DNA of 64,000 nucleotides, from NCBI GenBank assembly GCA_900317885.1, contig ONIM01000005.1, forward strand, positions 1-64,000, given 5' to 3'. This DNA is from an uncultured Bacteroidales bacterium (GTDB lineage Bacteria; Bacteroidota; Bacteroidia; Bacteroidales; Paludibacteraceae). The first letter of the stretch is position 1, and each line of letters begins with the position of its first letter. The notes below the pieces were generated by a model that saw only the letters and a program-made list of their open reading frames with translations, had not been told where the DNA came from and did no database searches. Made by a program: the position numbers and the translations under genes. Below are positions 3,345-56,460 of this stretch, in pieces.

Positions 3345-4758
3345 GAATATCATAGATTTTCGCTTCGCCGCCTTGTACGTCCAGATGGTTGTAAGGTTCG
3401 GAAGGGAAAACGAGGTTGGTCATCGACCAAGCGCCTTCGGCATCAAACGCCTCGATGGAGCAATGGTCGATGAAGAGGAGGACATGGTAGGTATCGCGTT
3501 TGACGAAGAGCGGCGCCACCGTGCGGGCTGCAAAATCATGGGAGAAAGAGCAATCACCCGAAGCGGTACGGTCCATGGAGAAAGTACGTCGGTGCACGTC
3601 CAGGTTCATGACCACTTTTTCTCCCTTGTCGTTGGAGAGAGTGATGAGTGCATCCTGTGAGCCATCAAGGGTCAGCTCCACGATACCGGCATCCGGCAGG
3701 TATCTGGTCTCCTCACCACGGAGCGCCAAAGACTCCGGAGACGGTACAGAACCCAGACGATACTCGCCTTCGTCATCCGTAAAGAGGAAGAGATCGCGGG
3801 CGATAGTATTCTGCGAGCGGAAAGCGACGGTAGGAACGACTTCTGCGTACTGCCAGTTAGACATCCATCCCATGGCTACCAAACGGCCATCAGGGGAGTT
3901 ATGGAAAGTGAAAGTGGAGTAATTATCCTTACCGTAATCGAGCCACGGAACAGCCTCTCCCCGACCCTCCCCTGAAGGGAAGGGAGTAAAAGTCTTACCG
4001 TCCCAGTCTCCGACGAAATACTGGGTTGCAGAGCCGCCAAACGGTCCACCGGGGTTGATGGAAACGAGGAGGACGTATTTGTCATTTATCTTCATTAACT
4101 CCGGACATTCCCATACGCCGCCATGAGCACCAAGGTCTTTGCCAAAGGACGAGAGGTATTCCCAATTTTTGAGGTCCGGCGAACCATAGAAACGGATCTC
4201 CTGCTGGCAAGCAAGCGTCATGAGCCAATGATCGCCATCCCAAGTCACTTTCGGATCACGGAAATCTGCGATGTCGCCCATGAGCACAGGGTTGCCTTCG
4301 TACTTGGTGAAGGTATAACCGCCGTCGGTGCTATACGCGATAGACTGATGTTGCCCGATACGCTCGGACTGAGTGAAGATAGCTACGATAGCGTTCTCCC
4401 CGAATCCGGCGGTGTTATCTTTGTCAATGACTGCCGAACCGGAGAAGATCGTTCCGATAGAATCCGGATAGAGCACAATGGGGTGTTCCTCCCAAGTGAG
4501 GAGGTCGGTTGAAGTGGCATGAGCCCAGTGCATCGGGCCCCAGGTAGTACCAAAGGGATTGTGCTGGTAGTAGAGGTGCCATACGCCGTTCGCCTCGTCG
4601 TAGAACATACCATTCGGGTCATTCATCCAGTTCGCCTCAGGCGTATGGTGATAGACAGAACGGAAAGGCTCGTCCGTGGGATGGGTTGCCGGCTTCCCGG
4701 CACAACCCGCCAACAGCACCGTCGCCGACAGCAATCCAAAAAGAATGTGTTTTGTCAT
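3340..4758 (-). CDS. GH32 beta-fructosidase (levanase/inulinase/invertase type) lipoprotein
   Basis: This 472-residue secreted glycosidase hydrolyses beta-fructosyl linkages by a retaining mechanism. A signal peptide ends in the lipobox LLAGC (Cys19). The three GH32 blocks are all present: WMNDPNG with nucleophile Asp47, FRDP with transition-state stabiliser Asp168, and WECPE with acid/base Glu217. The five-blade propeller occupies about residues 33-330, followed by a C-terminal beta-sandwich. Length is normal for the family. Around residues 258-268 (FPSGEGRGEA) the gene contains a copy of the GC-rich palindromic element. The gene lies between a tailed secreted protein and the permease. Whether it acts on levan, inulin or sucrose cannot be read from the sequence. 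Confidence 0.94.
   Translation of the reverse strand: MTKHILFGLLSATVLLAGCAGKPATHPTDEPFRSVYHHTPEANWMNDPNGMFYDEANGVWHLYYQHNPFGTTWGPMHWAHATSTDLLTWEEHPIVLYPDSIGTIFSGSAVIDKDNTAGFGENAIVAIFTQSERIGQHQSIAYSTDGGYTFTKYEGNPVLMGDIADFRDPKVTWDGDHWLMTLACQQEIRFYGSPDLKNWEYLSSFGKDLGAHGGVWECPELMKINDKYVLLVSINPGGPFGGSATQYFVGDWDGKTFTPFPSGEGRGEAVPWLDYGKDNYSTFTFHNSPDGRLVAMGWMSNWQYAEVVPTVAFRSQNTIARDLFLFTDDEGEYRLGSVPSPESLALRGEETRYLPDAGIVELTLDGSQDALITLSNDKGEKVVMNLDVHRRTFSMDRTASGDCSFSHDFAARTVAPLFVKRDTYHVLLFIDHCSIEAFDAEGAWSMTNLVFPSEPYNHLDVQGGEAKIYDIR
3953..3986 (-). repeat. Intragenic palindromic element, copy 1 (in GH32)
   Basis: In the sense of the gene it reads CTCCCTTCCCTTCAGGGG followed by AGGGTCGGGGAGAGGC, and it encodes part of FTPFPSGEGRGEAVPW. 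It matches the copies at 21449, 27334 and 55777 in layout (CTCCCTTCCCTTCAGGGAGG core, then a G-rich arm ending in AGGCTT). Confidence 0.7.
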
Positions 4759-4787
4759 AGGATGTATTTTTATTAGTTTGTTAGTCA

Positions 4788-4814
4788 GTATAGGCGGGTT
4801 TCAGCCGCCTATAC
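4788..4814. repeat. Perfect 10-bp inverted repeat between PUL genes
   Basis: GTATAGGCGG and CCGCCTATAC flank a 7-base spacer. The hairpin lies in the 67-base gap between the tailed secreted protein and the GH32 gene. No T-run follows on the minus strand, so it is more likely an RNA processing or stability hairpin than a terminator. Confidence 0.65.
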
Positions 4815-4825
4815 CGTCGCGGGGA

Positions 4826-5671
4826 TTATAATTGCGCACCCAGCGCGTTGTATTTCACACCATTTTTGAGGATGACGAGTTGTCCGTTCTCGAAGAACTT
4901 AACAGCCTTGCTCTCTACAGCAGTGTTGCTGATAGCAGTTGGGAAGTTACCCACAAGCACGATGTCGGTTACGTTGAAGGCTTCACCTGCCTCTTTGTTG
5001 AACTGAATCATCCAGTGACCGGCGTTAGCCAGACGGGTACGCAGTTCGTCGGTCAAAGCGAGTTCCATGTAGCCCTCACCTGCGGTCATTGCGCTTTGGT
5101 CAGCGATCTGACCTTCTGCATCCCAGTTCTCTTTGATATTGATCGCGAAATCCGAGCGGTTAGCCTCCGAATAGATGCGGAGGGCTGTCGCATAGGCGAG
5201 ATCCACATTGCAATAACCGTCACGATAGAGTTCGAGTGTGCTCCATTCGTCCGCCCAGAAGAAACCGGTCCAAACAGTAAAACCATCCTTGAGGGTTTTG
5301 CTCTCAAGGAGTTCTACCTGGGTACAAGTAAAGTTAGCACCGATGATTTCGAGGCCATAAGCTTTGAGGCTATCCACTGCGGTCTGGGTAAGGAACTGCT
5401 CGAAAGCGCCGTCACCACTGATCCATGCAGCCTCACGGCTACCTGCCAGATGGTCGAAATGCGCATTCATTACCTTAAACTCGATACCGTCGGAAGCACC
5501 GGTGAAATGCACCTTAATCAGGTTTCCGGGTTGAGCCGCTGCGAACTGATCGGCTGCAATCTGCACACCACCATCATCCCACGAAACGTGTTTCGAACCG
5601 GTCCAGATGTCGGTAGCGTTAACACTCATTACCAGCGCTGCGAAGAGCGCAACAAGAGAAATCTTTTTCAT
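4826..5671 (-). CDS. Secreted protein of unknown function with shared C-terminal tail, in fructan PUL
   Basis: This is a 281-residue exported protein. A signal peptide (MKKISLVALFAALVMSVNA) is followed by a Trp-rich, beta-sandwich-like body with two similar halves, around DIWTGSKHVSWDDGG (20-34) and VWTGFFWADEWSTLELYRD (about 133-151). That pattern suggests a carbohydrate-binding module, but I do not recognise the family. The last 20 residues (ENGQLVILKNGVKYNALG) belong to a tail also seen at the ends of the genes at 42555, 48804 and 52430. It lies 19 bases after the second GH32 gene in the operon. It has no lipobox Cys, so it may be released or anchored through the tail. Confidence 0.72.
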   Translation of the reverse strand: MKKISLVALFAALVMSVNATDIWTGSKHVSWDDGGVQIAADQFAAAQPGNLIKVHFTGASDGIEFKVMNAHFDHLAGSREAAWISGDGAFEQFLTQTAVDSLKAYGLEIIGANFTCTQVELLESKTLKDGFTVWTGFFWADEWSTLELYRDGYCNVDLAYATALRIYSEANRSDFAINIKENWDAEGQIADQSAMTAGEGYMELALTDELRTRLANAGHWMIQFNKEAGEAFNVTDIVLVGNFPTAISNTAVESKAVKFFENGQLVILKNGVKYNALGAQL

Positions 5672-15167: not shown

Positions 15168-15215
15168 CAAAATTACAATTTTTTTTGCATATATCAAAAT
15201 ATTTTCGTAATTTTG
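15168..15215. promoter_or_regulatory. Overlapping divergent promoters: dxs (plus) and PUL regulator (minus)
   Basis: Plus strand: TTTG (15184-15187), 20 bases, TAATTTTG (15208-15215), serving dxs. Minus strand: TTTG (15198-15195), 19 bases, TAATTTTG (15175-15168), serving the regulator. The two -33 boxes sit back to back within CATATATC, so polymerases probably cannot occupy both at once. Confidence 0.78.
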
Positions 15216-15258: not shown

Positions 15259-17235
15259 ATGGAATATCAGTATATCAACAAGATTGATTCGCCGGCGGAT
15301 CTGAAGAAGCTGAAGGTAGAGGAACTGCCGGCGGTATGTGCGGAGTTGCGGGATTTTATCATCGAAGCGCTGAGTAAGAACCCCGGGCATCTGGCTTCAT
15401 CCTTAGGCGCTATCGAGCTGACGGTAGCGCTGCATTATGTCTTTGACACCCCGGAGGACAAGCTGGTCTGGGACGTGGGACACCAAGCGTACGCGCATAA
15501 GATCCTCACGGGTCGCAGGGACCGCTTTCATACGAACCGGCAATTCAAAGGTCTCTCGCCGTTCACCAACCCTGCGGAGAGCGAGTATGACGCCTTCATC
15601 GCCGGACACGCTTCTAACTCTATCTCTGCCGCTCTCGGCATAGATATAGCAGACCGGCTTCGCCTGACAGAACACAGACCGGCTTCGCCTGACAGAACAC
15701 AGACCGATTCAGCAGAAAGTCAAAAGACCCACGTAGTAGCAATCATCGGGGACGGGGCGATGACAGGCGGTCTGGCTTTCGAGGGACTGAACAACACCTC
15801 GATGGACAAGAACAACCTGCTGATCGTCCTCAACGACAACCACATGGCGATCGACCCGCTGAAGGGCGGATTCACGCAGTACCTCGTCGATCTGACAACC
15901 AGCGAGACCTATAACAAATGGCGGTGGCGGCTGTATCAGGTAGCGGAGAGACTGCACCTGGTAGATGAACGCAAGCGGCGGGCGATGTTACGTCGCAACA
16001 ACTCTCTCAAAGCAGTTCTTTCCAAACAACCCAGTAATATCTTCACGGGTCTTAACATCCGTTATTTCGGTCCCACCGACGGCCACGACGTAGAGGGCTT
16101 GGTGCGTATTCTTCGCGAGATCAAGAACCACCGCGGACCGAAAGTGCTGCATATCATCACCAAGAAAGGCAAGGGCTACGCACCGGCGGAGAACGACCAG
16201 ACGGTATGGCATGCGCCGGGAGAATTTGATGTTGCCTCCGGCGAGCGGTTACAGGTTACGGGTGACGGGTTACGGGTTCCGCCGCTCTGGCAGGAGGTGT
16301 TCGGCGAGACGTTGTTGGAGATAGCGAAGAAGAACGAGAAGGTCGTCGGTATCACGCCTGCGATGCCCAGCGGGTGCTCGATGAGCATTATGCAGAAAGA
16401 GTTGCCGGACCGCGTGTTCGACGTCGGCATCGCCGAGGGGCATGCCGTGACGTTCAGCGCAGGGCTCGCGAAAGCAGGGATGGTGCCGTATTGCAATATC
16501 TACTCCACCTTCCTCCAGCGGGCGTACGACAATATCGTCCATGACGTAGCGTTGCAGAACCTGCACGTGGTGCTCTGTATCGACCGCGCAGGTATCGTCG
16601 GCAACGACGGCGCAACGCATCACGGGCTGCTGGACTTGGCGTACCTGCGACCCATACCGAACATGCAGATTTGCGCTCCGCGAACCGCCGAAGACTTGCG
16701 GGAGATGTTAACCCTCGCAGAGAAGATGGAAGGACCTGTGGCGATACGGTATCCGAGAGGAAGAACCGCGGTATTGAGTGATGCTAATGGTGACGCTTCG
16801 CTTAATGATGGAATGGTGAAGTATGGCAAGGGCATCAAACTCCGGGACGGAGAGGACGTAGCGGTACTGACCATCGGTGCGATAGGAAACCCCATGAGCG
16901 AAGCGATAGAGGAAGTCGAAAGTCAAAAGTCGAAAGTCGAAAGACGGTTCGCTCACTACGACATGCGGTGGTTGAAACCGATGGACGAGGAGATACTACA
17001 CGAAGTAGGACGGAAATACAAAACCATCGTCACTGCCGAGGATGGCATCATCGCCGGCGGTTTGGGCAGCGCCGTCTTGGAATGGATGAGCGACCACGGC
17101 TACAACCCGCGCGTCATCCGGCTGGGCGTGAATGACCAGTTTGTAGAGCACGGCTCTACCAAAGAACTATACCACTTATTGAAATTAGACAAGGAGGGAT
17201 TATGCGAATCATTATTGCAGGTGCCGGTGAAGTAG
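15259..17235 (+). CDS. dxs: 1-deoxy-D-xylulose-5-phosphate synthase
   Basis: DXS condenses pyruvate and glyceraldehyde 3-phosphate, with thiamine diphosphate, in the first step of the MEP isoprenoid pathway. I place the start at ATG 15259 (MEYQYINKIDSPADLKKLKV), 10 bases after a GGAG; an upstream in-frame TTG at 15229 would add a poor N-terminus. Visible blocks are HLASSLGAIELTVALHYVFD, the ThDP motif IGDGAMTGG...LNDN, FTGLNIRYFGPTDGHD and DVGIAEGHAVTFSAGLAKAG. Length (658) is slightly above usual because of inserted simple repeats: a 25-bp duplication before the ThDP motif and two 7-bp arrays. All keep the frame open. It overlaps trkA by 34 bases. Confidence 0.96.
   Translation: MEYQYINKIDSPADLKKLKVEELPAVCAELRDFIIEALSKNPGHLASSLGAIELTVALHYVFDTPEDKLVWDVGHQAYAHKILTGRRDRFHTNRQFKGLSPFTNPAESEYDAFIAGHASNSISAALGIDIADRLRLTEHRPASPDRTQTDSAESQKTHVVAIIGDGAMTGGLAFEGLNNTSMDKNNLLIVLNDNHMAIDPLKGGFTQYLVDLTTSETYNKWRWRLYQVAERLHLVDERKRRAMLRRNNSLKAVLSKQPSNIFTGLNIRYFGPTDGHDVEGLVRILREIKNHRGPKVLHIITKKGKGYAPAENDQTVWHAPGEFDVASGERLQVTGDGLRVPPLWQEVFGETLLEIAKKNEKVVGITPAMPSGCSMSIMQKELPDRVFDVGIAEGHAVTFSAGLAKAGMVPYCNIYSTFLQRAYDNIVHDVALQNLHVVLCIDRAGIVGNDGATHHGLLDLAYLRPIPNMQICAPRTAEDLREMLTLAEKMEGPVAIRYPRGRTAVLSDANGDASLNDGMVKYGKGIKLRDGEDVAVLTIGAIGNPMSEAIEEVESQKSKVERRFAHYDMRWLKPMDEEILHEVGRKYKTIVTAEDGIIAGGLGSAVLEWMSDHGYNPRVIRLGVNDQFVEHGSTKELYHLLKLDKEGLCESLLQVPVK
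15651..15706 (+). repeat. 25-bp tandem duplication inside dxs
   Basis: A 25-base unit beginning AGACCGGCTTCGCC is repeated exactly at 15651-15675 and 15676-15700, and a third copy starts at 15701 (AGACCG). It encodes the linker DRLRLTEHRPASPDRTQTD just before the ThDP-binding segment. The duplication is not a multiple of three. Confidence 0.88.
16247..16281 (+). repeat. 7-bp tandem array (5 units) inside dxs
   Basis: Units are GGTTACA, GGTTACG, GGTGACG, GGTTACG and GGTTCCG. They encode LQVTGDGLRVP in the linker between the ThDP and pyrimidine-binding domains, a part that varies among DXS proteins. Confidence 0.85.
16913..16947 (+). repeat. 7-bp tandem array (5 units) inside dxs, shared with the WbqC-like gene
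   Basis: Units are AAGTCGA, AAGTCAA, AAGTCGA, AAGTCGA and AAGACGG, encoding ESQKSKVERR. A block of about 30 bases is identical to part of the gene at 29143, in the same reading frame. Confidence 0.85.
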
Positions 17236-20032: not shown

Positions 20033-21340
20033 GTGAAGCCGTATAAAGTTCTGATATTTATAGCTTGCGTGATGGCATGCCTGGCGGCACTTTGCATGGT
20101 GCTGCCCGGGCGGATTGCGTTCGGCGAAAAGCAAGTACGCTGGCCGACTCTCGCGGAGGTGATAAGCCCCTCCCAGCCTCCCCATGAAGGGGAGGAGATA
20201 GAGCAACTAGATACTCTAGATGCTCTAGAGAGACTAGATACGCTAGATACGCCAGCCCCTCCGGAGAATAGCGATGAGAGGCTACCCATCCCCAAAGTGT
20301 CGGTGGATTCGACGACGGACAGCAGGGTCTTCCTGCAGGCCTTTTATGCATCGTTGGCGGACGCAGGGACGAAGAAGATCCGCGTCGTTCATTACGGAGA
20401 CAGTCAGATCGAGGAAGACCGCATGACCCAGCAGATCCGCGAAGCCTTACAAGCCGCCTACGGAGGTTCAGGAGTCGGGTTACTGCCGTTAGCGCAGACC
20501 ATTCCGTCCCTCACCGTACGGCAGGAGCTTTACCTCTCCGGTCGCTTCGTCAGCCCGATGAACGGTCCGAGGCGATACATGGTTCATGGTCCCAAACGCG
20601 ACCAGCGCACCGACGGACTTTACGGTCCGATGGGGCAGATGGCGTACCTAAGCGACAGCCTCGTCAAAGGTAGCGAGCGTATCACGGCTGTCTGCCAGCC
20701 CCTTCAACCCAATATGCACTACGATCGTTTCCGGCTTTTCGCAGACACCTCCGTCCACTATACCACCTCCCGCGACACGATGTTCCTCTCCGGCCGCGGC
20801 GGCGTTTACGGCCTCTCACAAGAGAGCCGGACCGGCATCATCGTCGATAACATCCCCTTGCGCGGATGTCTGGGCATCGTCTTTACAAAAATGGACAGCG
20901 CCCAGCTGAGCACGTTCTACAGCGAAGAGAACGTGCGGCTGATCATCATGCAGTTTGGCGGCAACGCTATCCCCTCTAATAAGAACCCCGGAACGATACA
21001 AGCGATCGTCACAGGCCTGCGTCAGCAGGTGCAGTACCTGCGTCGTTGCGCACCCGAGGCCTCGATTCTCTTCATCGGACCGAGCGACATGCTGACCCAG
21101 ACGGACGGCGAATGGATGACGTATCCGATGGTTCCGTACATGGACAAACTGCTGCGGAAGATGGCGTTGGAGGAGCATATCGCTTATTTCAGCCTCTACC
21201 GATGGATGGGCGGCAGCGGATCAATGATGAAATGGCAAGAAGTGGGTCTGGCTGGTTCGGACGGCGTACACTTTACCCGCGCCGGGGCTCGCAAGGCCGG
21301 AAAAGCAGTAGCAGAATGGATGATGGAAGTAAATGAGTGA
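20033..21340 (+). CDS. SGNH/GDSL-type esterase, partner of MBOAT acyltransferase
   Basis: This 435-residue protein has an N-terminal membrane anchor (VLIFIACVMACLAALCMVLPG) and an extracytoplasmic SGNH hydrolase domain. Block I is HYGDSQIEEDR with Ser124, block III is MQFGGNAIP, and block V is SDGVHFTRAG with Asp410 and His413. It directly precedes an MBOAT acyltransferase; such pairs move acetyl groups onto cell-wall or exopolysaccharides (compare alginate and peptidoglycan O-acetylation). The start is GTG at 20033, directly after the trkH stop. Between anchor and domain there is a palindromic-element copy (20164-20197) and a 9-bp array encoding LDTLDALERLDTLDT. Confidence 0.82.
   Translation: MKPYKVLIFIACVMACLAALCMVLPGRIAFGEKQVRWPTLAEVISPSQPPHEGEEIEQLDTLDALERLDTLDTPAPPENSDERLPIPKVSVDSTTDSRVFLQAFYASLADAGTKKIRVVHYGDSQIEEDRMTQQIREALQAAYGGSGVGLLPLAQTIPSLTVRQELYLSGRFVSPMNGPRRYMVHGPKRDQRTDGLYGPMGQMAYLSDSLVKGSERITAVCQPLQPNMHYDRFRLFADTSVHYTTSRDTMFLSGRGGVYGLSQESRTGIIVDNIPLRGCLGIVFTKMDSAQLSTFYSEENVRLIIMQFGGNAIPSNKNPGTIQAIVTGLRQQVQYLRRCAPEASILFIGPSDMLTQTDGEWMTYPMVPYMDKLLRKMALEEHIAYFSLYRWMGGSGSMMKWQEVGLAGSDGVHFTRAGARKAGKAVAEWMMEVNE
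20164..20197 (+). repeat. Intragenic palindromic element, copy 2 (reverse orientation, SGNH gene)
   Basis: The element reads AAGCCCCTCCCAGCCTCCCC then ATGAAGGGGAGGAG, encoding SPSQPPHEGEE in the linker after the membrane anchor. It is the reverse orientation of the 27334 and 55777 copies. Confidence 0.7.
20207..20251 (+). repeat. 9-bp tandem array (5 units), in frame
   Basis: Units are CTAGATACT, CTAGATGCT, CTAGAGAGA, CTAGATACG and CTAGATACG. The 9-bp period is frame-neutral and gives a Leu-Asp-Thr-like tripeptide repeat in the linker of the SGNH protein. Confidence 0.9.
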
Positions 21341-23135
21341 TTTCTGGTATCACATATTAGGATTTAACGCAGAGAGCCCGCTGCTCTTCACCCAGTTTTA
21401 TTTCTGGGCGTTCTTCGCGTTGGTCTATGCGCTTTTTGCGTTGCTTATCTCCCTTCCCTCTAGGGAAGGGTCTGGGTTAGGCTTACCCAACCGCAGGCTC
21501 CATTTGCGCAACGTTTATCTGATGTTCGTCAGCTGGTTCTTTTACTACAAGACCAGCGGAATCTTCCTGCTCATCTTAGCCTTCGTCACACTCTCCGACT
21601 GGCTCATCGCCAAGCGGATCCATAAAAATCTGTCAGCAAAGCGGTCTGTCAGCAAAGCTGCGCTTTGGCTCACCCTCTCCGTCGTCATCGACCTCTCCAT
21701 CCTCTTTTATTTCAAGTACGCGTACTTCTTCACGAACGTCATCAACTCTTGGTTTGGCGCGGATCTCCGGGTCTTTGACATCTTCGCCTATATCGGCAAC
21801 GGCTTCTCCGAGGCCGGGCGGTTTGATGTGGATACCATCATCCTGCCGGTGGGTATATCGTTCTATACCTTCCAGGTCATCTCCTACACCTGCGACGTCT
21901 TCCGGCGGAAGATCGAACCGGTGAAGAACATTCTGGATTTTGGTTTCTACGTCTCCTTCTTCCCGCAGCTCGTAGCCGGACCTATTGTGCGTGCCGAAGA
22001 GTTCATCCCGCAGTTATACAAACCTTTCCGCCTCTCGCGCAGAGCCTTCGGCATCGCGGTCTTCTGGATCCTCAACGGTCTGGCGAAGAAGATCATCATG
22101 TCCGATTACCTGGCGGTGAACCTCATCGACCGCGTCTTTGACAACCCGCTTCTCTTCTCCGGCTTCGAGAACCTCTTTGCGCTCTTTGCGTACTCGCTGC
22201 AGGTCTATGCAGATTTCTCGGGCTATACGGATATCGCTATCGGCGTAGCGATGCTCATGGGCTTCTACCTGCCGATGAACTTCAACAGCCCCTATAAGTC
22301 CAAAACGCCGCAAGAGTTCTGGAGGCGGTGGCACATGTCCCTCGGACGGTGGCTCAAGAGCTATCTCTATATCCCATTAGGCGGTAACCGAACGATTCTC
22401 GGCTTCAAGGCGCCCAAACTATGGGCGTCGAACTTCAATTCGTTCATCACCCAAGTCCTCGGCGGTCTCTGGCATGGCGCAAGTTGGAACTTCGTCCTCT
22501 GGGGAGCCATCAACGGCGTGGGCATGATCGTGGAGAAGATCTGGCGGGAATGGAACTGGCATGTACGTTTTGCGGCGATTTCTGCGTTGACGTTCGGGCT
22601 GGTGCTACTCGATTATTTCTATAACCTCCCTGTCTGGCGTCTCTTCGCTGTATGGGCGGCTATCATCTGGTTTGGAACCGCCATCCGGTATATCTACTGG
22701 TTGATTACAGCAGATAAAATCATAAATCATAAACTTGAAATCCTAAATAATAAAATCGCGAACGCGTGGGCGATCTTGCAGACTTTTGCTTTCATCACCT
22801 TCACGCGTCTCTTCTTCCGTTCGTCCAGTAACCTTGACCCCGCGACGGCAAATGAAGTAGCTTGGGCGACGGCAAAAAATATGGTGAACCAAATCGGCGG
22901 CGCGTGGTCCAATGCCATCATCCCGGATTTCCTCTGGGAGTACAGATGGGTCGTCGCGATGTTCGTTGCCGGCATGCTGATTCATTGGATCCCGACGAAC
23001 TTCAAACGCCGTTACCGCCTGTGGTTTAGCGCGATGCCTTTGTGGCTGATGGTCATCGTCGTCTGCCTCGCCATCGTCGTCATCTACCAGTTCGTCTCCG
23101 CCGAGATGCAACCCTTTATATATTTTCAGTTCTAA
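21333..23135 (+). CDS. MBOAT-family membrane O-acyltransferase (AlgI/DltB/PatA-like)
   Basis: This 600-residue polytopic membrane protein passes acyl (probably acetyl) groups across the inner membrane for polysaccharide O-acylation. MBOAT core motifs are present: FYTFQVISYTCDVFR, VAGPIVRAEEFIPQ, KSKTPQEFWRRWHMSLGRWL and LGGLWHGASWNFVLWG with the catalytic His381. It overlaps the SGNH partner by 8 bases. A palindromic-element copy (21449-21484) lies in the first loop, and an AT-rich 7-bp array (22717-22758) encodes KIINHKLEILNNKIAN in a later loop. The acceptor glycan is unknown. Confidence 0.9.
   Translation: MSDFWYHILGFNAESPLLFTQFYFWAFFALVYALFALLISLPSREGSGLGLPNRRLHLRNVYLMFVSWFFYYKTSGIFLLILAFVTLSDWLIAKRIHKNLSAKRSVSKAALWLTLSVVIDLSILFYFKYAYFFTNVINSWFGADLRVFDIFAYIGNGFSEAGRFDVDTIILPVGISFYTFQVISYTCDVFRRKIEPVKNILDFGFYVSFFPQLVAGPIVRAEEFIPQLYKPFRLSRRAFGIAVFWILNGLAKKIIMSDYLAVNLIDRVFDNPLLFSGFENLFALFAYSLQVYADFSGYTDIAIGVAMLMGFYLPMNFNSPYKSKTPQEFWRRWHMSLGRWLKSYLYIPLGGNRTILGFKAPKLWASNFNSFITQVLGGLWHGASWNFVLWGAINGVGMIVEKIWREWNWHVRFAAISALTFGLVLLDYFYNLPVWRLFAVWAAIIWFGTAIRYIYWLITADKIINHKLEILNNKIANAWAILQTFAFITFTRLFFRSSSNLDPATANEVAWATAKNMVNQIGGAWSNAIIPDFLWEYRWVVAMFVAGMLIHWIPTNFKRRYRLWFSAMPLWLMVIVVCLAIVVIYQFVSAEMQPFIYFQF
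21449..21484 (+). repeat. Intragenic palindromic element, copy 3 (MBOAT gene)
   Basis: A 36-base copy starting CTCCCTTCCCTCTAGGG and ending in TTAGGCTT, encoding SLPSREGSGLGLP in the first loop of the MBOAT protein. At 12 codons it leaves the frame intact. Confidence 0.75.
22717..22758 (+). repeat. 7-bp AT-rich tandem array (6 units) inside the MBOAT gene
   Basis: Units are AAATCAT, AAATCAT, AAACTTG, AAATCCT, AAATAAT and AAAATCG. Unit types and order resemble the intercistronic array at 35543-35584. Confidence 0.82.
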
Positions 23136-23136: not shown

Positions 23137-23718
23137 ATGATTATAGGTATCACCGGAGGCATAGGAAGCGGCAAGTCCACTATTGCACGAGCGCTCGCAG
23201 CCCGCGGGTTTGCCGTCTATGACTGTGACCGCGAAGCCAAACGTATCATTGCGGAGAACAAAGACGTGCAGCAACAGATCATCGCCCTCCTCGGTCCAGA
23301 AGCGTTTGTCAACGGGGTTTATAACACCGCCTATGTCGCCCAACGCGTCTTTGCCGAGCCGGAGCTACTGGAGCGGTTGAATCAGATCGTTCACCCCGCC
23401 GTCAAAGAAGATATCTTGGAGAAGCAACCGGACTTTGTAGAATCGGCTATTCTGTATGAGGCAGGGTTAGATGCTATTTGCGACAAGATTTTTGTCATCG
23501 AAGCCCCGGAAGACATCCGCATCGCGCGTACCATCGCCCGCGACTACCACGGCGACGCCTCGCCCGAGAATATAGATAAGGTACGCGCCCGTATACGCGC
23601 GCAACTATCATCATCCCCCCTCCATGGGGGGACCGAGAGGGGCTTCATTCTTATTAATGACGGACAGAAAAGTATCGATGAATTGGCAGATGAGATACAG
23701 AATTGGCTGAAAAAGTGA
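23137..23718 (+). CDS. coaE: Dephospho-CoA kinase
   Basis: CoaE phosphorylates dephospho-CoA, the last step of coenzyme A synthesis. The 193-residue protein begins MIIGITGGIGSGKSTIARAL with P-loop GGIGSGKST at residues 7-15. It has the expected RGFAVYDCDREAKRII and NQIVHPAV segments and the LID-like ARTIARDYHGDASPENIDKVRARI. Near the C-terminus a palindromic-element copy encodes SSPLHGGTERGF, a loop absent from ordinary family members. It follows the MBOAT gene by one base, so it is probably in the same transcript. No separate terminator is evident after it. Confidence 0.94.
   Translation: MIIGITGGIGSGKSTIARALAARGFAVYDCDREAKRIIAENKDVQQQIIALLGPEAFVNGVYNTAYVAQRVFAEPELLERLNQIVHPAVKEDILEKQPDFVESAILYEAGLDAICDKIFVIEAPEDIRIARTIARDYHGDASPENIDKVRARIRAQLSSSPLHGGTERGFILINDGQKSIDELADEIQNWLKK
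23615..23645 (+). repeat. Intragenic palindromic element, copy 4 (coaE), diverged
   Basis: The palindrome CCCCCCTCCATGGGGGG is followed by ACCGAGAGGGGCTTC. It keeps the plan of a GC palindrome plus G-rich arm ending in GGCTT, with base changes. It lies within coaE near the 3' end. Confidence 0.6.
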
Positions 23719-23979: not shown

Positions 23980-24058
23980 AGTATAGATAATTCAATAAAC
24001 AATAACGGAGAGAGCCGAAAATCCTATAAAGAGTAGGCACAAAAACTAACAAAAAAAA

Positions 24059-25536: not shown

Positions 25537-25568
25537 TTTGCGTATGTGCAATTTTTGTAGTACCTTTG
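25537..25568 (+). promoter_or_regulatory. Promoter of the lipocalin-like lipoprotein
   Basis: TTTG (25537-25540) in TTTGCGTATGTG, 20 bases, then TACCTTTG (25561-25568). The predicted start falls at or just before the first unit of the 10-bp repeat leader. Confidence 0.8.
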
Positions 25569-25570
25569 CA

Positions 25571-25785
25571 GCCGAAATAAGACGGAATAGGCAATAATAG
25601 GCCGAAATAGGCCGGGATAAGCCAAAATAGGCAAAATAAGCAGGGGTAAGCAATAATAGGCAATAATAGGCCGAGATAAGCAATAATAGGCCGAAATAGG
25701 CCGGGATAAGCCCAAATAGGCAAAATAGGCCGGGATAAGCAATAATAGGCAAAATAAGCAGGAATAAGCAGGAATAAGCAAATAA
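25571..25785 (+). repeat. 10-bp degenerate tandem array (about 22 units) forming a whole 5' leader
   Basis: Units of 9-10 bases follow the consensus GC-M-RRR-ATA-R, for example GCAATAATAG, GCCGAAATAG, GCCGGGATAA and GCAGGAATAA. They fill the space between the promoter and ATG 25800. Because every unit carries TAA or TAG and the period is not a multiple of three, the plus strand is closed in all frames, so this is untranslated leader. A-rich blocks repeat at about one helical turn. Confidence 0.93.
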
Positions 25786-26877: not shown

Positions 26878-27534
26878 ATGAGAATAGCAATTATCGGATA
26901 CGGAAAGATGGGTCACATGATCGAAGAAGTGGCCCTGAGCAGAGGTCACGAGATTGTGGCTACTATTGACGCCGGCGATGCCTTCGACCTGAAAGGCGCC
27001 GACGTGGCGATTGAGTTTACTACTCCGGCAACGGCAGAGGAGAACATCCGCAAGGCCTGGGCACAAGGTGTGCCTGTAGTCTCCGGTTCGACCGGGTGGG
27101 ACGCCGCAGCACTGATGGACGAAGACCGACGGATGCATGACAAACAAATGCTCGTCTGGAGCAGCAATTACTCCGTAGGCGTCAATATATTCTTTGAGTT
27201 GAACAAGTTCCTGGCTGAGAAGATGGCATCCCAACCGCAGTACACCCCTTCCATCACCGAGACCCACCATATTCACAAACTCGACAAACCAAGCGGAACT
27301 GCCAAAACTTTGGCGGAACAAATAGAGAACGAACTCCCTTCCCTTCAGGGAGGGGCTGGGGGTAGGCTTCCTATCGAATCCATACGCGAAGGCGAAGTGC
27401 CGGGGACGCATGAGGTGAAATGGGACAGCGAGGAGGATACGATCATTATTACACACATCGCCAAAGGCCGCAGGGGTTTTGCCCTCGGAGCTGTACTCGC
27501 TGCGGAAGATATTTATAAAGAAAAAAACATATAA
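26878..27534 (+). CDS. dapB: 4-hydroxy-tetrahydrodipicolinate reductase
   Basis: DapB reduces hydroxy-tetrahydrodipicolinate with NAD(P)H in lysine and diaminopimelate synthesis. The 218-residue protein begins MRIAIIGYGKMGHMIEEVA with Rossmann GYGKMG. It has the acid-rich VATIDAGDAFD, SGSTGW, and the signature THHIHKLDKPSGTAKTLAEQ containing the catalytic His/Lys and the substrate-binding PSGTA. It is shorter than the E. coli enzyme, as is usual in Bacteroidota. Immediately after the signature a palindromic-element copy (27334-27369) encodes LPSLQGGAGGRL as an extra surface loop. It has its own promoter. Confidence 0.95.
   Translation: MRIAIIGYGKMGHMIEEVALSRGHEIVATIDAGDAFDLKGADVAIEFTTPATAEENIRKAWAQGVPVVSGSTGWDAAALMDEDRRMHDKQMLVWSSNYSVGVNIFFELNKFLAEKMASQPQYTPSITETHHIHKLDKPSGTAKTLAEQIENELPSLQGGAGGRLPIESIREGEVPGTHEVKWDSEEDTIIITHIAKGRRGFALGAVLAAEDIYKEKNI
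27334..27369 (+). repeat. Intragenic palindromic element, copy 5 (dapB)
   Basis: A 36-base copy: CTCCCTTCCCTTCAGGGAGG then GGCTGGGGGTAGGCTT, encoding LPSLQGGAGGRL. It is nearly identical to copy 8 at 55777, which is read in the same frame. Confidence 0.88.
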
Positions 27535-27697: not shown

Positions 27698-29146
27698 ATG
27701 GTCAAAAATGATCCGAAAAAGATGAAAAGTTTTCAAGATAGAATTAACGAAGTGTCGCGCGGAGGATGGATTCGCGCAGGGGTTTGGAGCGCGCTCTATA
27801 TCGCGTTCGTCATCTGGGTCGCATGGGGCGACTGGAAGAGTCTGGGTTGGCTGGTGTTGCTGCCGCTGATCGTAGATGCCTTCACAACGAAGTATATCAA
27901 CTACTCTTGGTGGCGGAAGTATAAGCCTACCCCCGACCCCTCCCTGAAAGGAGGGGAGAAGGGAGCAACGCCAAACCCCAAAGGGAATGCTTTTCTTTAT
28001 ACTTTGTTTAGTTGGATAGACGCGATTGTTTTTGCCCTCGTAGCGGTGTATTTCATCAACTTGTATATCTTCCAAAACTACCAGATTCCCTCTTCGTCTC
28101 TGGAGAAGAGTCTGCGTGTCGGAGACTTCCTGTACGTGAGCAAGATGGCGTACGGCGCGCGTGTGCCGCAGACGCCGCTCTCGATGCCGCTCGTGCAACA
28201 CACGATGCCGGAATGGTTGGGCGGAGGAAAGAGTTATCTGGATAATCCGCATTGGGACTACAAACGCCTAGCAGGTTGGACGAGTCCGAAGAAAGGCGAC
28301 ATCGTCGTTTTCAATTTTCCTGCCGGCGACACGGTGTGTCTGAAGATGCAGAATCCCGACTACTATACCCTCAAGCACTACTACGGCGAGGCGTTGTTAA
28401 GATCCCGCGAGGATGTCTTTGGCGAGATCGTCACGAGGCCTGTCGATAGGCGTGAGAACTACGTCAAACGCTGCGTGGGTGAACCGGGAGACTCGTTGAA
28501 AATCGTGGAGAACACGATTTTTACAAAGGGACTAAGTGCGCCAAGTGGGCAGTACTCAAGTACCACGGCGTGGCAGCGTGAGCCGGAGAGAGAGGGATTG
28601 CAGCTAAACTACCTCGTGCAGACCGACGGGCATGTGTTCGGGGCCAAATACCTGGAGAAGATCGGTATCAGCATAGCTGACCGCATCCAGATAGACGCCA
28701 CCACCTGGCATTTCCCGCTGACAAAGGCGATGAAGGAGGAGTTGACCCAGAACCCGCATGTGGTAGCCGTCGTAGTAGAACCATCGGAGCGCGGCGGAGA
28801 GGTCTATCCGCTGGGACATAACACCTGGACGCGCGACAACTACGGACCGATTTATATCCCGAAGAAAGGCGATAAACTGATGATTACCGAGGAGAACTAC
28901 TGGATCTATAAGCGGATTGCGGACGCGTACGAGTTCAAGTCCATGAAGATCGGCGAGGAGTACGAGTTTGAGATGGATTACTACTGGATGCAGGGCGACA
29001 ACCGCCATAACTCCGCCGACAGCCGTTATTGGGGCTTCGTACCGGAGGATCACATCGTCGGACGGCCGGTATTCATCTGGCTCTCCATCGACAAAGACAA
29101 ACATTCCATCCGCTGGAACAGGATTGGCAGAGGAGCAAAACGATGA
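27698..29146 (+). CDS. lepB: Signal peptidase I
   Basis: LepB cleaves signal peptides of exported proteins at the outer face of the inner membrane. The 482-residue length is typical of the large Bacteroidota form. Membrane segments are at about 30-62 and 103-125. The catalytic Ser block is NYQIPSSSLEKSLRVGDFL (Ser134, with Leu where Met is usual). The general-base block is NYVKRCVGEPGDSL (Lys257). The GDN block WMQGDNRHNSADSRYWGFVP lies near the C-terminus. A palindromic-element copy (27923-27964) encodes KPTPDPSLKGGEKG between the first membrane segments and the catalytic domain. The stop overlaps the next start (ATGA). Confidence 0.95.
   Translation: MVKNDPKKMKSFQDRINEVSRGGWIRAGVWSALYIAFVIWVAWGDWKSLGWLVLLPLIVDAFTTKYINYSWWRKYKPTPDPSLKGGEKGATPNPKGNAFLYTLFSWIDAIVFALVAVYFINLYIFQNYQIPSSSLEKSLRVGDFLYVSKMAYGARVPQTPLSMPLVQHTMPEWLGGGKSYLDNPHWDYKRLAGWTSPKKGDIVVFNFPAGDTVCLKMQNPDYYTLKHYYGEALLRSREDVFGEIVTRPVDRRENYVKRCVGEPGDSLKIVENTIFTKGLSAPSGQYSSTTAWQREPEREGLQLNYLVQTDGHVFGAKYLEKIGISIADRIQIDATTWHFPLTKAMKEELTQNPHVVAVVVEPSERGGEVYPLGHNTWTRDNYGPIYIPKKGDKLMITEENYWIYKRIADAYEFKSMKIGEEYEFEMDYYWMQGDNRHNSADSRYWGFVPEDHIVGRPVFIWLSIDKDKHSIRWNRIGRGAKR
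27923..27964 (+). repeat. Intragenic palindromic element, copy 6 (lepB, reverse orientation)
   Basis: The copy begins AAGCCTACCCCCGACCCC and continues TCCCTGAAAGGAGGGGAG, encoding KPTPDPSLKGGE. The ilvE copy has the same orientation and frame. Confidence 0.85.
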
Positions 29147-29667: not shown

Positions 29668-30700
29668 TTGGAGTAAATTGGGATTTCATTACACGGAGCC
29701 GGACTATATAGTTCGCGCCGCGTATCACGATGGCGCGTGGGAAGAACCCTACGCCACGAAGGACAAGTTCCTGCACTTGCATGTGTCGGCTACTTGTTTG
29801 CAGTATGGGCAAGAGGCCTTTGAGGGGCTGAAAGCTTTCCGGGGAGTAGATGGGAAGATCCGTATCTTCCGCTGGCGGGATAATGCCAAACGAATGGCGC
29901 GAAGCGCAGAGGGCTTGTACATGCAGCCCGTTCCGGAGGAGTTGTTCGGCAAAGCCATCCGGCTGGCGTTGGAGAAGAACCTGGATTTTCTGCCGCCTTA
30001 CGGAACTGGCGCAACGCTTTATTTCCGACCGCTGCTGATCGGTACGACGCCGAGGCTGGGTGTAGGACCGGGCAGAGACTTTGAGTTCATCGTCATCCCT
30101 TCGCCGATAGGTCCGTACTATCCGGGCAAGTTCCATTGCACAACCTTTATCGTGAACCGGCATGTGGATCGTGCGGCGCCTTACGGAACAGGTACATTCA
30201 AGGTCGGCGGTAACTACGCCTCGTCCTTCCGGGCTACCGAACCGGCTCATGCACAAGGCATGGACTGCCTCTTCCTCGATGCCAAACACCATCGGTATAT
30301 CGACGAGTGCTCGGCAGCGAACTTTATCGGTATAAAGAGGCCTACCCCCACCCCCTCCCTAAAGGGAAGGGAGCCTCAGATTGAATTTTTGACACCGCGG
30401 TCGTCCGCTATTCTGCCGAGTATCACGAATGACAGTCTAATGACCCTGGCAAAGGACTTAGGGATGAAAGTGACGAGACGGCATATCCGGCTGGAGGAAC
30501 TGGCGGACATGAGCGAAGCCGCAGCCTGCGGAACGGCGTGCGTCATTAGCCCAATCGACAAAGTGATCGATCCGGAGAAGAACAAGATCTACCACCTGAG
30601 CGACGAACCCGGACCGGTACTCACGAAATTGTACCACGCACTACGGGACATCCAATTCGGCCGAGCCGAAGATAAGCACGGATGGTGCACAATAATTTAA
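29654..30700 (+). CDS. ilvE: Branched-chain amino acid aminotransferase
   Basis: IlvE exchanges the amino group between branched-chain amino acids and 2-oxoglutarate, using PLP. The 348-residue product (from ATG 29654, MKEIDWSKLGFHYTEPDYIV; the preceding TTG is less likely) has the class IV fold markers GQEAFEGLKAFRG, LYFRPLLIGT, and the PLP-lysine region GTGTFKVGGNYASSF. It also has FLDAKHHRYIDECSAANFIGI and EAAACGTACVISPI near the end. Between the last two, a palindromic-element copy (30338-30373) encodes RPTPTPSLKGREP, adding a loop between conserved strands. Overlap with the WbqC-like gene suggests one operon from lepB to here. Confidence 0.95.
   Translation: MKEIDWSKLGFHYTEPDYIVRAAYHDGAWEEPYATKDKFLHLHVSATCLQYGQEAFEGLKAFRGVDGKIRIFRWRDNAKRMARSAEGLYMQPVPEELFGKAIRLALEKNLDFLPPYGTGATLYFRPLLIGTTPRLGVGPGRDFEFIVIPSPIGPYYPGKFHCTTFIVNRHVDRAAPYGTGTFKVGGNYASSFRATEPAHAQGMDCLFLDAKHHRYIDECSAANFIGIKRPTPTPSLKGREPQIEFLTPRSSAILPSITNDSLMTLAKDLGMKVTRRHIRLEELADMSEAAACGTACVISPIDKVIDPEKNKIYHLSDEPGPVLTKLYHALRDIQFGRAEDKHGWCTII
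30338..30373 (+). repeat. Intragenic palindromic element, copy 7 (ilvE, reverse orientation)
   Basis: The copy starts AGGCCTACCCCCACCCCC and continues TCCCTAAAGGGAAGGGAG, encoding RPTPTPSLKGRE, in the same frame as the lepB copy. Confidence 0.85.
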
Positions 30701-54111: not shown

Positions 54112-54200
54112 TTTTTGTCGCGGGTCCTCTCTTCGTAATGCGATAAAACTCCGTTTTAACGGTAATTACTCAGAGGAACTCCGCTCTCCCCAAGAGGCAA
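54112..54200 (+). promoter_or_regulatory. Candidate S6:S18 autoregulatory leader RNA of rpsF
   Basis: In the 135-base leader, CCTCT (54126-54130) pairs with AGAGG, GTAAT with ATTAC, and CCGTT with AACGG, giving a three-part hairpin with unpaired CCG-bearing bases. Leaders of rpsF operons in many bacteria bind the S6:S18 complex through a CCG-containing stem-loop; assignment here is by position and general shape only. Confidence 0.5.
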
Positions 54201-54241
54201 TATTAATATTATTAACTAATTAAAAATTAACATTTACTACA

Positions 54242-54583: not shown

Positions 54584-54585
54584 TC

Positions 54586-54852: not shown

Positions 54853-54879
54853 TTAACCCACTAAAAGAAAGGAAAGAAA

Positions 54880-55323: not shown

Positions 55324-55353
55324 TGTTAAACATTTAAAGAAAGGAAAAAAGCA

Positions 55354-55608
55354 ATGAAAGCTGGAATTCATCCTGATAACTACCGCGTAGTAGTTTTCAA
55401 AGATATGTCTGACGGTACTCAGTTCTTCAGCCGCTCAACTGCAGCAACGAAGGACACGATCGAAATCGACGGCGTTCAGTATCCGCTGATCAAGCTGGAG
55501 ATCTCGAACACGAGTCACCCGTTCTACACCGGTAAGTCCAAACTCGTGGACACCGCAGGTCGTGTGGACAAATTTATGTCTCGCTACGGCAATCGCAACC
55601 GCAAGTAA
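55354..55608 (+). CDS. rpmE: 50S ribosomal protein L31, type B (zinc-free)
   Basis: This 84-residue L31 begins [20 protein letters not shown] and includes [20 protein letters not shown] and [20 protein letters not shown]. It lacks the Cys residues of the zinc-binding type, so it is the C-minus (type B) form. It follows rplI by 30 bases and probably belongs to the same transcript, which ends at a strong hairpin. Confidence 0.97.
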
Positions 55609-55624
55609 TCCTTGCGAGATTTTT

Positions 55625-55660
55625 CAAGGGGCGAGCATGTGCTTGCCCCTTGATATTTTA
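55625..55660 (+). terminator. Hairpin terminator after rpmE
   Basis: CAAGGGGC...GCCCCTTG forms a long near-perfect stem (55625-55652) followed by ATATTTTATT. The T-run is interrupted, but the stem is strong. Confidence 0.75.
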
Positions 55661-55674
55661 TTACTAATAGCACT

Positions 55675-56460
55675 ATGAACAACACACAACTCTGGCGCGC
55701 TTTAGGCCGCAATTTCATCATCTCCATCCTCCTTTTCGGAGCACTACTCGGAATTTTATTCCTGATCGAATCTTTTCTCCCCGCCTTTCAGGGAGGGGCT
55801 GGGGGTAGGCTTCTTCGTTGGCATGATCCCGCGTGGGTAGTCGGCATTCCTGCCTCTATCATCGGCGTAGCATATATCTTAACTGTCCGTGACCCGCAGA
55901 ACTACACCGGATTCTTCGCCGGCGTGGTTATGTCGATCCTGTTAGGCATCCAGTTTCTGCTGCAAAGCCAATACGACAGCGCGTTTCTCTTCTTCTTTGT
56001 CTTCATCCCGTTCCAACTGATGTCCATCTATAAATGGAGCAGGTCGAAAGACGACGGAGGCGCCAGTTTTGAGCCGAAATTCCTTGACACCCCGCGACTG
56101 TTTTTATCCGTCGCGCTGCTGATCTTCATTACCGCGGGAGATTTTATTATCAATCTGTACGCCATTCATGGCGCGCTCGCTTTGGACGGATGGAAAGAAG
56201 CTGTCATCCTTTTGCTGAACGGATTGCTGATCTCCTCCTCATTCCTCGCCAACTACTGGTTGATCTATCGCAAGACGGACTCGTGGATCTATTGGTTCAT
56301 ATACAGCATCGCCGGCATCGGATTGTTCATCTTCCTGGGCAATGCGTTCTCGATCGTGCTGTTCACCTTCTTCCTGGTGATCAACTCCATGGCAGGTATC
56401 GCCTGGCTCAAAGCAACCAAACCGGAGAATATGGGATGGCTAAACTTATTTAAACAATGA
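55675..56460 (+). CDS. PnuC-family nicotinamide riboside/vitamin transporter-like membrane protein
   Basis: This 261-residue protein has about seven hydrophobic segments. The PnuC-like pattern includes FVFIPFQLMSIYKWSR (about 115-130), WLIYRKTDSWIYWFIYSIAG (about 199-218), and FTFFLVINSMAGIAWLKATK at the end. PnuC transporters carry nicotinamide riboside or related vitamins by facilitated diffusion. Its N-terminal region is longer than usual and contains a palindromic-element copy (55777-55812) encoding LPAFQGGAGGRL between the first two segments. It overlaps the RluA-type gene by 4 bases. Confidence 0.72.
   Translation: MNNTQLWRALGRNFIISILLFGALLGILFLIESFLPAFQGGAGGRLLRWHDPAWVVGIPASIIGVAYILTVRDPQNYTGFFAGVVMSILLGIQFLLQSQYDSAFLFFFVFIPFQLMSIYKWSRSKDDGGASFEPKFLDTPRLFLSVALLIFITAGDFIINLYAIHGALALDGWKEAVILLLNGLLISSSFLANYWLIYRKTDSWIYWFIYSIAGIGLFIFLGNAFSIVLFTFFLVINSMAGIAWLKATKPENMGWLNLFKQ
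55777..55812 (+). repeat. Intragenic palindromic element, copy 8 (PnuC-like gene)
   Basis: A 36-base copy: CTCCCCGCCTTTCAGGGAGG then GGCTGGGGGTAGGCTT, encoding LPAFQGGAGGRL. The last 22 bases equal those in the dapB copy. Confidence 0.88.

Follow-up and report, generated by a model that had tools for sequence, protein, structure and literature searches.

The genome of this uncultured Bacteroidales bacterium probably carries a family of intrastrand triplex motifs of class II (the purine-motif type), dispersed copies of which spread as DNA and survive in frame in tolerant loops of the encoded proteins. This reading draws on features observable in the sequences themselves, namely the anatomy of the copies, the covariation of arm and tail, copy number, location within genes, use of all six frames and turnover between species. 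In the proposed mechanism, one DNA strand would fold as a hairpin of a pyrimidine arm, a loop and a purine arm, and the G-rich tail would turn back past a 3-nt loop to lie as an antiparallel third strand, forming C.G*G, T.A*A and T.A*T triads. Copies would spread as DNA, probably by a non-autonomous route, and amplification limited to fold-competent copies would maintain the match between arm and tail across the subfamilies. Landing appears to be nearly blind to genes; copies that happen to fit the frame of a tolerant surface loop or linker would survive and be translated, as the unit is 36 nt long (12 codons) and its consensus has a stop codon in only two of six frames. A more far-reaching interpretation, which we offer only tentatively, is that of a selfish DNA fold, propagated for its single-strand triplex ability without a linked transposase, for which coding sequence is the habitat in this genus. 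Such a fold might, through repeated independent landings, come to occupy the same loops of essential enzymes, be translated in any frame or orientation, act as a steady source of new protein loops and, at some sites, be more conserved as DNA than the surrounding gene.

Anatomy of the copies in the window

The window, by which we mean the whole 64-kb stretch of DNA analyzed, contains all eight copies listed in the original prediction at the positions given there. As claimed, they lie inside open reading frames, here with Pfam matches to GH32, GDSL/SGNH, MBOAT, CoaE, DapB, Peptidase_S26, Aminotran_4 and NMN_transporter, and each adds a 12-codon loop to its host protein. Six form one close family: 3951..3986 on the minus strand in the GH32 gene (3340-4758, minus), read as TPFPSGEGRGEAV; 21449..21484 on the plus strand in the MBOAT gene (21333-23135, plus), read as ISLPSREGSGLGL; 27334..27369 on the plus strand in dapB (26878-27534, plus), read as LPSLQGGAGGRL; 27923..27958 on the minus strand in lepB (27698-29146, plus), read as KPTPDPSLKGGE; 30338..30373 on the minus strand in ilvE (29651-30700, plus), read as RPTPTPSLKGRE; and 55777..55812 on the plus strand in the PnuC/NMN-transporter gene (55675-56460, plus), read as LPAFQGGAGGRL. 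The other two, at 20162..20196 (35 nt as cut) on the minus strand in the SGNH/GDSL gene (20033-21340, plus), read as ISPSQPPHEGEE, and at 23613..23648 on the plus strand in coaE (23137-23718, plus), read as SSPLHGGTERGFI, represent a second sequence type with the same layout. The SGNH/GDSL frame around the 20162 copy is taken as coding because the residues just upstream are conserved in relatives; the gene caller places the start of this gene at 20297, later than the copy. The dapB and 55777 copies share one frame and the lepB and ilvE copies another, as had been noticed from the window alone.

The unit comprises an 8-nt pyrimidine arm, a 4-nt loop, an 8-nt purine arm, a 3-nt loop and a G-rich tail in mirror order to the purine arm, with the consensus CCCTTCCC-TTCA-GGGAGGGG-NNG-GGGGTAGG. 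In the dapB copy, the pyrimidine arm CCCTTCCC (27336..27343, plus) pairs over the TTCA loop with the purine arm GGGAGGGG (27348..27355, plus), and beyond the 3-nt loop (27356-27358) the putative third-strand tail GGGGTAGG (27359..27366, plus) mirrors the purine arm, an assignment based on mirror covariation. Within the mismatches that our finder allows, each of the eight window copies shows the class II layout (Y arm, loop of 3-6, R arm, loop of 3, R' tail). Applied to the window, this layout-only finder returned nine matches, namely the eight copies and one overlapping match on the opposite strand, and none in any of five shuffles of the window. The initial description of a palindromic core with a G-rich arm was right about the copies but overlooked the third-strand mirror relation of that arm; since it repeats the purine strand of the stem in mirror order, we group the element with intrastrand triplex motifs and not with plain palindromes.

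Covariation of the purine arm and the tail

The hairpin is well maintained: 32 copies give 256 cells, of which 97.7% are paired. The third strand was evaluated on 58 distinct ungapped copies from the own genome, drawn from 63 of the 77 aligned copies that were exactly 40 nt long. The tail has A or T at 77 of 88 positions opposite an arm A, as against 62 of 371 opposite an arm G. Triad-matching cells (G*G, A*A or T*A, antiparallel) make up 82.8%; they number 384, compared with an average of 326.1 after shuffling (sd 4.7, z 12.3), a significance that is overstated since the copies are related to each other. When the partner was slid by -2, -1, +1 or +2 positions, the covariation was absent (z -0.4, -1.5, -3.2 and -1.3). 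In other named genomes mirror covariation is also seen (z 5.8 for 14 distinct copies, from the 16 of 120 ungapped copies that lack the scan pattern itself). Co-changes of the A-T and A-A type occur at mirror columns 21/31 and 23/29, and at column 33 a constant A faces G19, which leaves 56 of the 58 copies mismatched there. Cruder approaches were less discriminating: with the stem register unfixed and a 3-nt offset, there was no clear signal in own copies (0.40 vs 0.39) or named loci (0.41 vs 0.37), and an arm-tail signal emerged only in loci of the genus (0.67 vs 0.36). Fixing the register through the length of the second loop with the layout finder alone likewise gave a weak result in the own sources, with 76 matches at a loop of 3, yet 66 at a loop of 1, and 50 at a loop of 4 with the tail in direct order.

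Genome-wide copy number, placement and frames

Searching the whole 2.1-Mb assembly with a covariance model built from 32 of the copies recovered 74 copies at E<=1.1e-3 and 93 at E<=1, these counts deriving from the 150 of 528 first-look candidates that were scored. The original prediction had allowed that the element might prove rare elsewhere; it proves common genome-wide, and with <=3 mismatches allowed a 24-mer pattern finds 36 matches against 0 for its reversed form. The gene and spacer count that had been proposed as a check places 59 of the 74 copies in genes, compared with 87.2% of random 36-mers from the same sources (P 0.047 for depletion). In the relative G025, the layout-only finder detects 24 motifs in 1.52 Mb versus 1 in the shuffle, 21 of them in predicted genes in a genome that is 91.5% coding. 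The element thus has no preference for genes, contrary to what had been suggested from the window, and equally fails to avoid them, its placement being close to random.

All six frames are used by the intragenic copies (anti0 18, same0 15, same2 9, same1 8, anti1 7 and anti2 2), with 32 in the same and 27 in the opposite orientation relative to the gene, and six different peptides are encoded. The 36-nt core is sharply bounded, falls into subfamilies and is found both in spacers and in unrelated genes. Among its diverse settings, some copies lie just past gene ends, some form head-to-head pairs and one is split by a segment that partly recurs nearby. Nine occupy one type of linker that precedes a shared C-terminal domain, and filled and empty paralogues of this linker exist side by side.

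Across the analysis, at most 41 genomes of the genus were searched. We also tallied exact-pattern copies in 80 listed records grouped by record title. Among the records listed, those titled Paludibacteraceae and Bacteroidales/other have 47 copies in genes, 11 outside and 1 partial (2 at locus edges were left out), those titled Prevotella/Prevotellaceae have 7 in and 14 out (Fisher P 2.4e-4 between these two groups, the partial copy counted as out), and those titled Bacteroidaceae 3 in and 3 out. Titles may mislead, as the Prevotella-titled L173, L219, L232 and L241 share 16-54% of their length with sequence of the genus. An always-intragenic location as a general rule was rejected on the counts among these records.

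Turnover among relatives

Of the 59 intragenic copies, 40 could be compared with orthologues in G025, of which 1.52 of ~1.8 Mb was covered; for 16 the orthologue was weak or missing, and three were not spanned. The loop is absent in 34 and shared in 6; sharing was called from a few set peptide patterns, and two of the shared cases are decayed copies that both match a single G025 gene. When DapB, IlvE, MurI and CysS are aligned with their best PDB relatives, gaps fall at the loop position, so the prospect that homologues of unrelated genera carry the same loops is not borne out in these four solved structures. More generally, the host loops are hypervariable: many relatives have short loops, and others have different triplex motifs or 7-8 nt tandem repeats at the same positions. 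Alignment of the host proteins with their relatives, proposed earlier as a way to define exact insertion borders, established the missing loop; no clean empty site from which borders or a target duplication could be read was found against G025, where loop length differences scatter over 34 sites from -28 to +16 codons, with a median of +5 and a difference of +12 at one site. Nor did the syntenic sets, in which the closest pairs are 84-85% identical, yield an empty-site strain, and terminal inverted repeats are absent from the 36-nt consensus.

Some copies are strongly conserved. Of seven copies that are shared or lie at the same site, three are near-identical while their flanks are 71-77% identical. 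The coaE copy is 36/36 identical in the relative G018, the dapB copy is 36/36 identical in G025 and the ilvE copy, also common to G025, matches at 33/36. Same-site copies in ApbE (29/36), MBOAT (28/36) and lepB (29/36) are no better conserved than their flanks. Among relatives 88-90% identical, none that covers the site (L192, L254) has any of the three own copies of one 9.6-kb stretch, and the own copy in another stretch is common to L209. Of the 19 motifs that could be placed in other species (one of 20 could not), 7 lie <=20 nt from an own copy (P 8e-5), several of them being of other subtypes, and 4 of 16 do so after removal of three likely shared by descent (P 0.014).

Alternative explanations

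Several other readings account for parts of these data. The conserved DNA structure could be a G-quadruplex (or an i-motif on the opposite strand), as four G runs lie on the G strand and the published E. coli motif may face the same competitor (PMC4666352), but we consider this quite unlikely: a quadruplex requires neither a pyrimidine arm, which is nevertheless paired in nearly all cells, nor the co-changes at mirror columns, and NMR on the E. coli motif favored the triplex (PMC4666352). The hairpin would also form in RNA, and with some copies just past gene ends the element might be kept as a terminator, mRNA stabilizer or RNase site. This appears very improbable given that intragenic copies occur in both orientations and that none of the window copies gives an Rfam match above the family cutoff. 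Further, RNA would not be expected to adopt a purine-motif third strand. Selection of the encoded peptide as a useful linker might be read from the nine copies ahead of the common C-terminal domain, but is scarcely credible when six frames yield six different peptides, filled and empty paralogues of that very linker coexist and unrelated repeats fill the same loops in relatives.

The mode of origin can likewise be construed otherwise. Loops might be filled by replication slippage and template switching in the absence of any mobile element, the G-rich hairpin being a frequent product spread between loops by short-homology conversion; the tandem repeats in the same loops of relatives, the irregular length differences and the interrupted own copy would all fit. 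A sharply bounded unit with subfamilies in spacers and unrelated genes, along with full 36/36 identity at two orthologous sites, makes this unlikely. We give little credence to the view that a REP-associated Y1 transposase (RAYT) mobilizes the family as a REP-type element and leaves the intragenic copies as a by-product, even though this is a 36-nt imperfect palindrome with many copies, head-to-head pairs and GTAG in the tails of most, and REPs within ORFs are known in several species (PMC3733652). The same source describes REPs as mostly intergenic, and in our element no GTAG/CGTC tag stands at the foot of the stem at either end, the GTAG lying in the tail on the 3' side, off the stem, and being unconserved (G 0.65 at column 31 and T 0.85 at column 32, over 52 copies with bits >=39, a 40-nt match and full flanks). 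The search for a Y1 transposase suggested with the original prediction found no convincing one, the own genome having a single partial PF01797 match of 26 bits with one internal stop; as the assembly is 88.8% complete, a Y1 gene might lie in the missing part. G006, G025 and G035, with 18, 11 and 24 pattern matches, have no PF01797 match at E<=0.001, and we rejected the RAYT link as copy number does not track PF01797 matches.

Relation to known elements

A close counterpart of our putative triplex family is the TM_ECO or PIT element (Holder et al. 2015, PMC4666352), a 37-nt intrastrand triplex motif from proteobacteria that folds in vitro, showed no stable triplex in living E. coli and is always intergenic in E. 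coli MG1655; that paper also cites earlier work of the Maher group on intrastrand triplex motifs. Both have a pyrimidine arm, a loop, a purine arm, a 3-nt loop and a purine tail, and TM_ECO too is short, dispersed and strongly variable in copy number among close relatives, with no transposon tie found (PMC4666352). The Bacteroidales element differs in belonging to another sequence family, its consensus as read against the published pattern CCCTCNCCC N3-6 GGGNGAGGG N3 GGGNGAGGG failing to match, and in its residence within predicted genes (59/74 own copies, in frame, and 21/24 in G025). A genus with the motif mostly in genes offers dozens of natural insertions as a direct test of its spread, of whether the fold is kept, and of which loops of core enzymes (MurF, MurI, CysS, ArgS, PrmC, RibD, DapB, IlvE and others) accept ~12 extra residues.

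The likeness to Rickettsia palindromic elements (RPEs) drawn in the original prediction survives in part. As in the RPEs outlined in PMC3733652, a short repeat lies in frame in many unrelated protein genes and is missing from most compared relatives, so that a lineage of gut Bacteroidales would join those in which palindromes insert in frame; the gene preference and Y1 link did not hold up. The lineage is different, RPE-4 and RPE-6 are CGTC-tagged REPs, and in the sections of that source drawn on no triplex tail is described. The GTAG/CGTC REPs covered there resemble our element as 20-40 bp palindromes of high copy number with opposite-orientation pairs and some copies in ORFs, but differ in the position and conservation of the tag, in the RAYT, of which we found none, and in the mostly intragenic location seen here. 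The enterobacterial RU small mobile sequences (PMC2759123) are also non-autonomous repeats with open frames in annotated genes, but are 103-168 bp long and MITE-like, and their abstract states no triplex layout. Finally, a triplex-forming purine sequence within bacterial genes is reported from Acinetobacter (PMC5472653), where, in the portion of that paper considered, it apparently concerns purine repeats in genes and not one dispersed element family.

Anatomy and predicted fold of the element

All eight copies that the original prediction had placed within coding sequence in the window were recovered there, and each lies in an open frame of a protein with a Pfam family. Across the source assembly (2.12 Mb, 89 contigs, 88.8% complete), a 24-mer pattern with up to three mismatches gave 36 matches and its backward control none, while a covariance model built from 32 copies gave 93 matches at E<=1, 74 of them at E<=1.1e-3, counts that may be low because scoring covered only 150 of the 528 first-look candidates. 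Some motifs stand as head-to-head pairs with tails outward and 40-54 nt between starts (L061:2865-2944, L064:4551-4642 and L076:1569-1660 in the stretches examined; also L175, L205, L237 and L246); the Bacteroidaceae-titled L205 (two pairs), L237 and L246 have a spacing of 54, and L175 one of 48.

With the G-rich arm last, the 36-nt consensus reads CTCCC(T/C)TCC(C/T)TTCA GGGAGGGG NN GGGGGTAGGCTT, and conservation drops sharply on either side of it. Columns 5-12 pair with columns 17-24 as a hairpin in 97.7% of 256 cells (32 copies), and past a 3-nt loop lies the tail, columns 28-35, which mirrors columns 24-17. This is the layout expected of a class II, purine-motif intrastrand triplex. A finder given this architecture alone recovered 8/8 window copies, including the two of a second sequence type (20162 and 23613), and found none in five shuffled windows. 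The same finder does not fix loop length and mirror order well: on the own sources it returned 76 matches at a 3-nt loop, 66 at 1 nt and 50 in direct order at 4 nt.

Arm and tail change together in different subfamilies: A21 with T31 or A31 (15 and 6 copies), A23 with A29 (7 copies), G20 with G32 (8 copies) and A24 with A28 or T28 (4 copies). Among 58 distinct ungapped copies, the tail has A/T in 77/88 cells facing an arm A and in 62/371 facing an arm G, the latter being mostly the nearly constant A33. The same copies hold 384 triads against 326.1 (sd 4.7) over 2000 shuffles (z 12.3), and for 14 distinct copies taken from other named genomes z is 5.8, figures that are inflated as the copies are related. 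The weight of the covariation lies in several columns co-changing in different subfamilies and in the silence of the controls with partners slid by -2, -1, +1 and +2 (z -0.4, -1.5, -3.2 and -1.3). An initial arm-tail test with the stem register unfixed gave a clear signal in the genus loci only, and none in the own copies or the named loci.

A motif of like architecture and different sequence has been outlined by Holder and colleagues, 5'-CCCTCNCCC N3-6 GGGNGAGGG N3 GGGNGAGGG-3', with 3610 occurrences in 262 proteobacterial genomes; it forms a triplex in vitro, occurs in E. coli MG1655 exclusively between genes, and no tie to transposons was found there (PMC4666352). Related subjects include intragenic REPs and rickettsial elements (PMC3733652), RU elements within genes (PMC2759123) and triplex-forming purine repeats in Acinetobacter genes (PMC5472653). 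In titles and abstract openings, with partial coverage and few subscription journals, we found no paper on a dispersed triplex motif in frame in genes, and none on such elements in Bacteroidales. We think it probable that the element constitutes a dispersed, non-autonomous triplex-motif family, in which the predicted fold would be what is kept. As for a REP-associated (Y1/RAYT) transposase, the search that had been suggested yielded in the own genome a lone weak, partial Y1_Tnp (PF01797) match (G000:C34:67854-68042; 26 bits) with a TAG inside, and no match at E<=0.001 in the copy-rich genomes G006, G025 and G035; the link was accordingly rejected.

Genomic distribution and relation to genes

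A shorter pattern matched in 26/61 genomes, namely 25/37 of the genus, with copy numbers from 0 to 41, and 1/24 from other families. A wider draw from the order added one match, in 1/148 other genomes. The single genome from a sister genus of the same family had no pattern match, and 400 kb of it contained 0 motifs by the layout-only finder, an outcome with a chance of 0.002 at the density of G025. Thus, within what was searched, the expansion is a property of this genus; some records with Prevotella and other titles also contain copies. The exact pattern occurs in at least 117 stretches; among the 80 matches listed, titles name Bacteroidales, Paludibacteraceae, Bacteroidaceae, Prevotellaceae or Prevotella, with one Fibrobacter, and many name ruminants. 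Two own stretches around other copies are ~90% identical to records that carry the titles Bacteroidales bacterium UBA2712 (L192) and UBA4333 (L209).

The preference for coding sequence originally claimed did not hold up. By our own codon-usage gene caller, which is not a standard one, 59 of 74 own copies are entirely within genes, 2 are partly so and 13 lie outside; since 87.2% of random 36-mers drawn from those sources are entirely within genes, this amounts to slight depletion (P 0.047), not enrichment. In G025, which was not chosen around copies, 21/24 motifs are in genes against 91.5% coding. The element is therefore close to blind to genes, and in this it differs from the E. coli motif and most REPs. 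Because a gene call requires an open frame, flanks were also scored alone: for 36 copies the sequence on either side is coding-like, and strand and phase are kept across the element in 32 of these and not in 4. Read by orientation relative to the host gene and by frame, in-gene copies occupy all six possibilities (anti0 18, same0 15, same2 9, same1 8, anti1 7, anti2 2); the consensus has a TAG in same1 and a TGA in anti2, and most same1 copies belong to a subtype without the TAG. Among the matches listed, Prevotella-titled records hold 7 exact-pattern copies in genes and 14 outside, and since these lie mostly in spacers, tolerance of the element in genes looks lineage-specific.

Host proteins, turnover and refilling of sites

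Hosts with family matches include MurF, KpsF, ArgS, PrmC, RibD (two copies), a DusB-like protein, RdgB, a 2-oxoacid:acceptor oxidoreductase with two adjacent copies, a pyridine nucleotide-disulphide oxidoreductase with two copies, ApbE, a DsbD-type protein, MurI and CysS. In the best PDB alignments of DapB (1vm6), IlvE (4dqn), MurI (1b73) and CysS (6ujd), the solved relative is gapped over, or overlapping, the element peptide. Syntenic loci were taken from 29 relatives for each of two regions, out of 40 searched, and the comparison covered six window hosts (SGNH, MBOAT, CoaE, DapB, LepB and IlvE); in all six the element sites are hypervariable loops, many of them short in relatives (DapB EQI-GTDVA-IES, IlvE GIK-GN-EYL, LepB YKDTKPA-LYT).

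For 40 in-gene copies an orthologue in G025 spans the site; G025 lacks 34 of these copies and shares 6. The loop length differences scatter widely, and a plain 36-nt insertion is putative. Of three copies in the own stretch L067, none was found in the 88-90% identical relatives where the site is covered: at 9835, the site of the in-gene copy, L192 has a loop that is shorter and unrelated, and L254 comes to its end; at 2802 L254 carries a different repeat, in a part that L192 lacks; and the copy at 7768 is absent in both. A copy in a second own stretch, L098, is common to L209. At L067:5161-5247 a 45-nt segment splits an own motif that is intact in L192 and L254, and a 21-mer from this segment is found again 3 kb away at L067:2145; this looks like one repeat landed in another, in frame. 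Seven copies are shared or occupy the same site. Three of them are almost identical (dapB 36/36 against flanks of 77.3%, coaE 36/36 against 73.5%, DsbD-type 34/36 against 70.8%), the ilvE copy falls in between (33/36), and the other three are about as conserved as their flanks. The near-identity may reflect constraint at the DNA level, parallel insertion or conversion by other copies.

In other species the same loops are filled by other triplex motifs, at dapB of L126 in the opposite orientation, or by tandem repeats with units of 7-8 nt, GTCGAAA, TGTACGA and GGGTTAC among them. Within the relatives' syntenic loci, 7/19 placed motifs are no more than 20 nt from an own copy (P 8e-5), and 4/16 do so once three motifs likely shared by descent are removed (P 0.014). 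Nine own-genome copies, in both orientations, sit in one kind of linker before a shared C-terminal domain (NGQIFILRGEKVYTLTGQEVK-like; L105:2648, L081:2738, L083:450, L072:2703, L073:2747, L088:2819, L082:1500 and 2664, L065:2823), and other paralogues go without. Such refilled spots may be hot through DNA preference or through protein tolerance; the clearest base preferences beside the core are for A/T in the three preceding positions and for C/T in the second one that follows. In this genus, protein loops seem to be filled with several kinds of repeat DNA.

Other repeats and features of the window

Short 7-8 nt tandem (GTCGAAA, TCGAAATA, TGTACGA, GGGTTAC and others) or AT-rich repeats also occur inside predicted genes, in the window at 16914-16960, 22715-22754 and 29541-29573, and in loops of L110, L111, L112, L113, L115, L120 and L121, where relatives often use loops that here hold triplex motifs. 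Positions 25566-25781 hold a long array made up of degenerate AATAGGCCGA / GATAAGCAAT type units. A match to the DUF805b RNA (RF02914; 41.6 bits, Rfam cutoff 35.6) lies at 24005-24039, between coaE and the next predicted gene. Finally, a repeated block of ~36 nt, of the TTTGCGTATGTC...GTAGTACCTTTGCAGCC type, which looks like a putative long promoter, recurs at 15185, 23726, 24999, 25538, 26792, 52319 and 62208 on the (+) strand and at 1102, 42516, 50691 and 52092 on the (-) strand.
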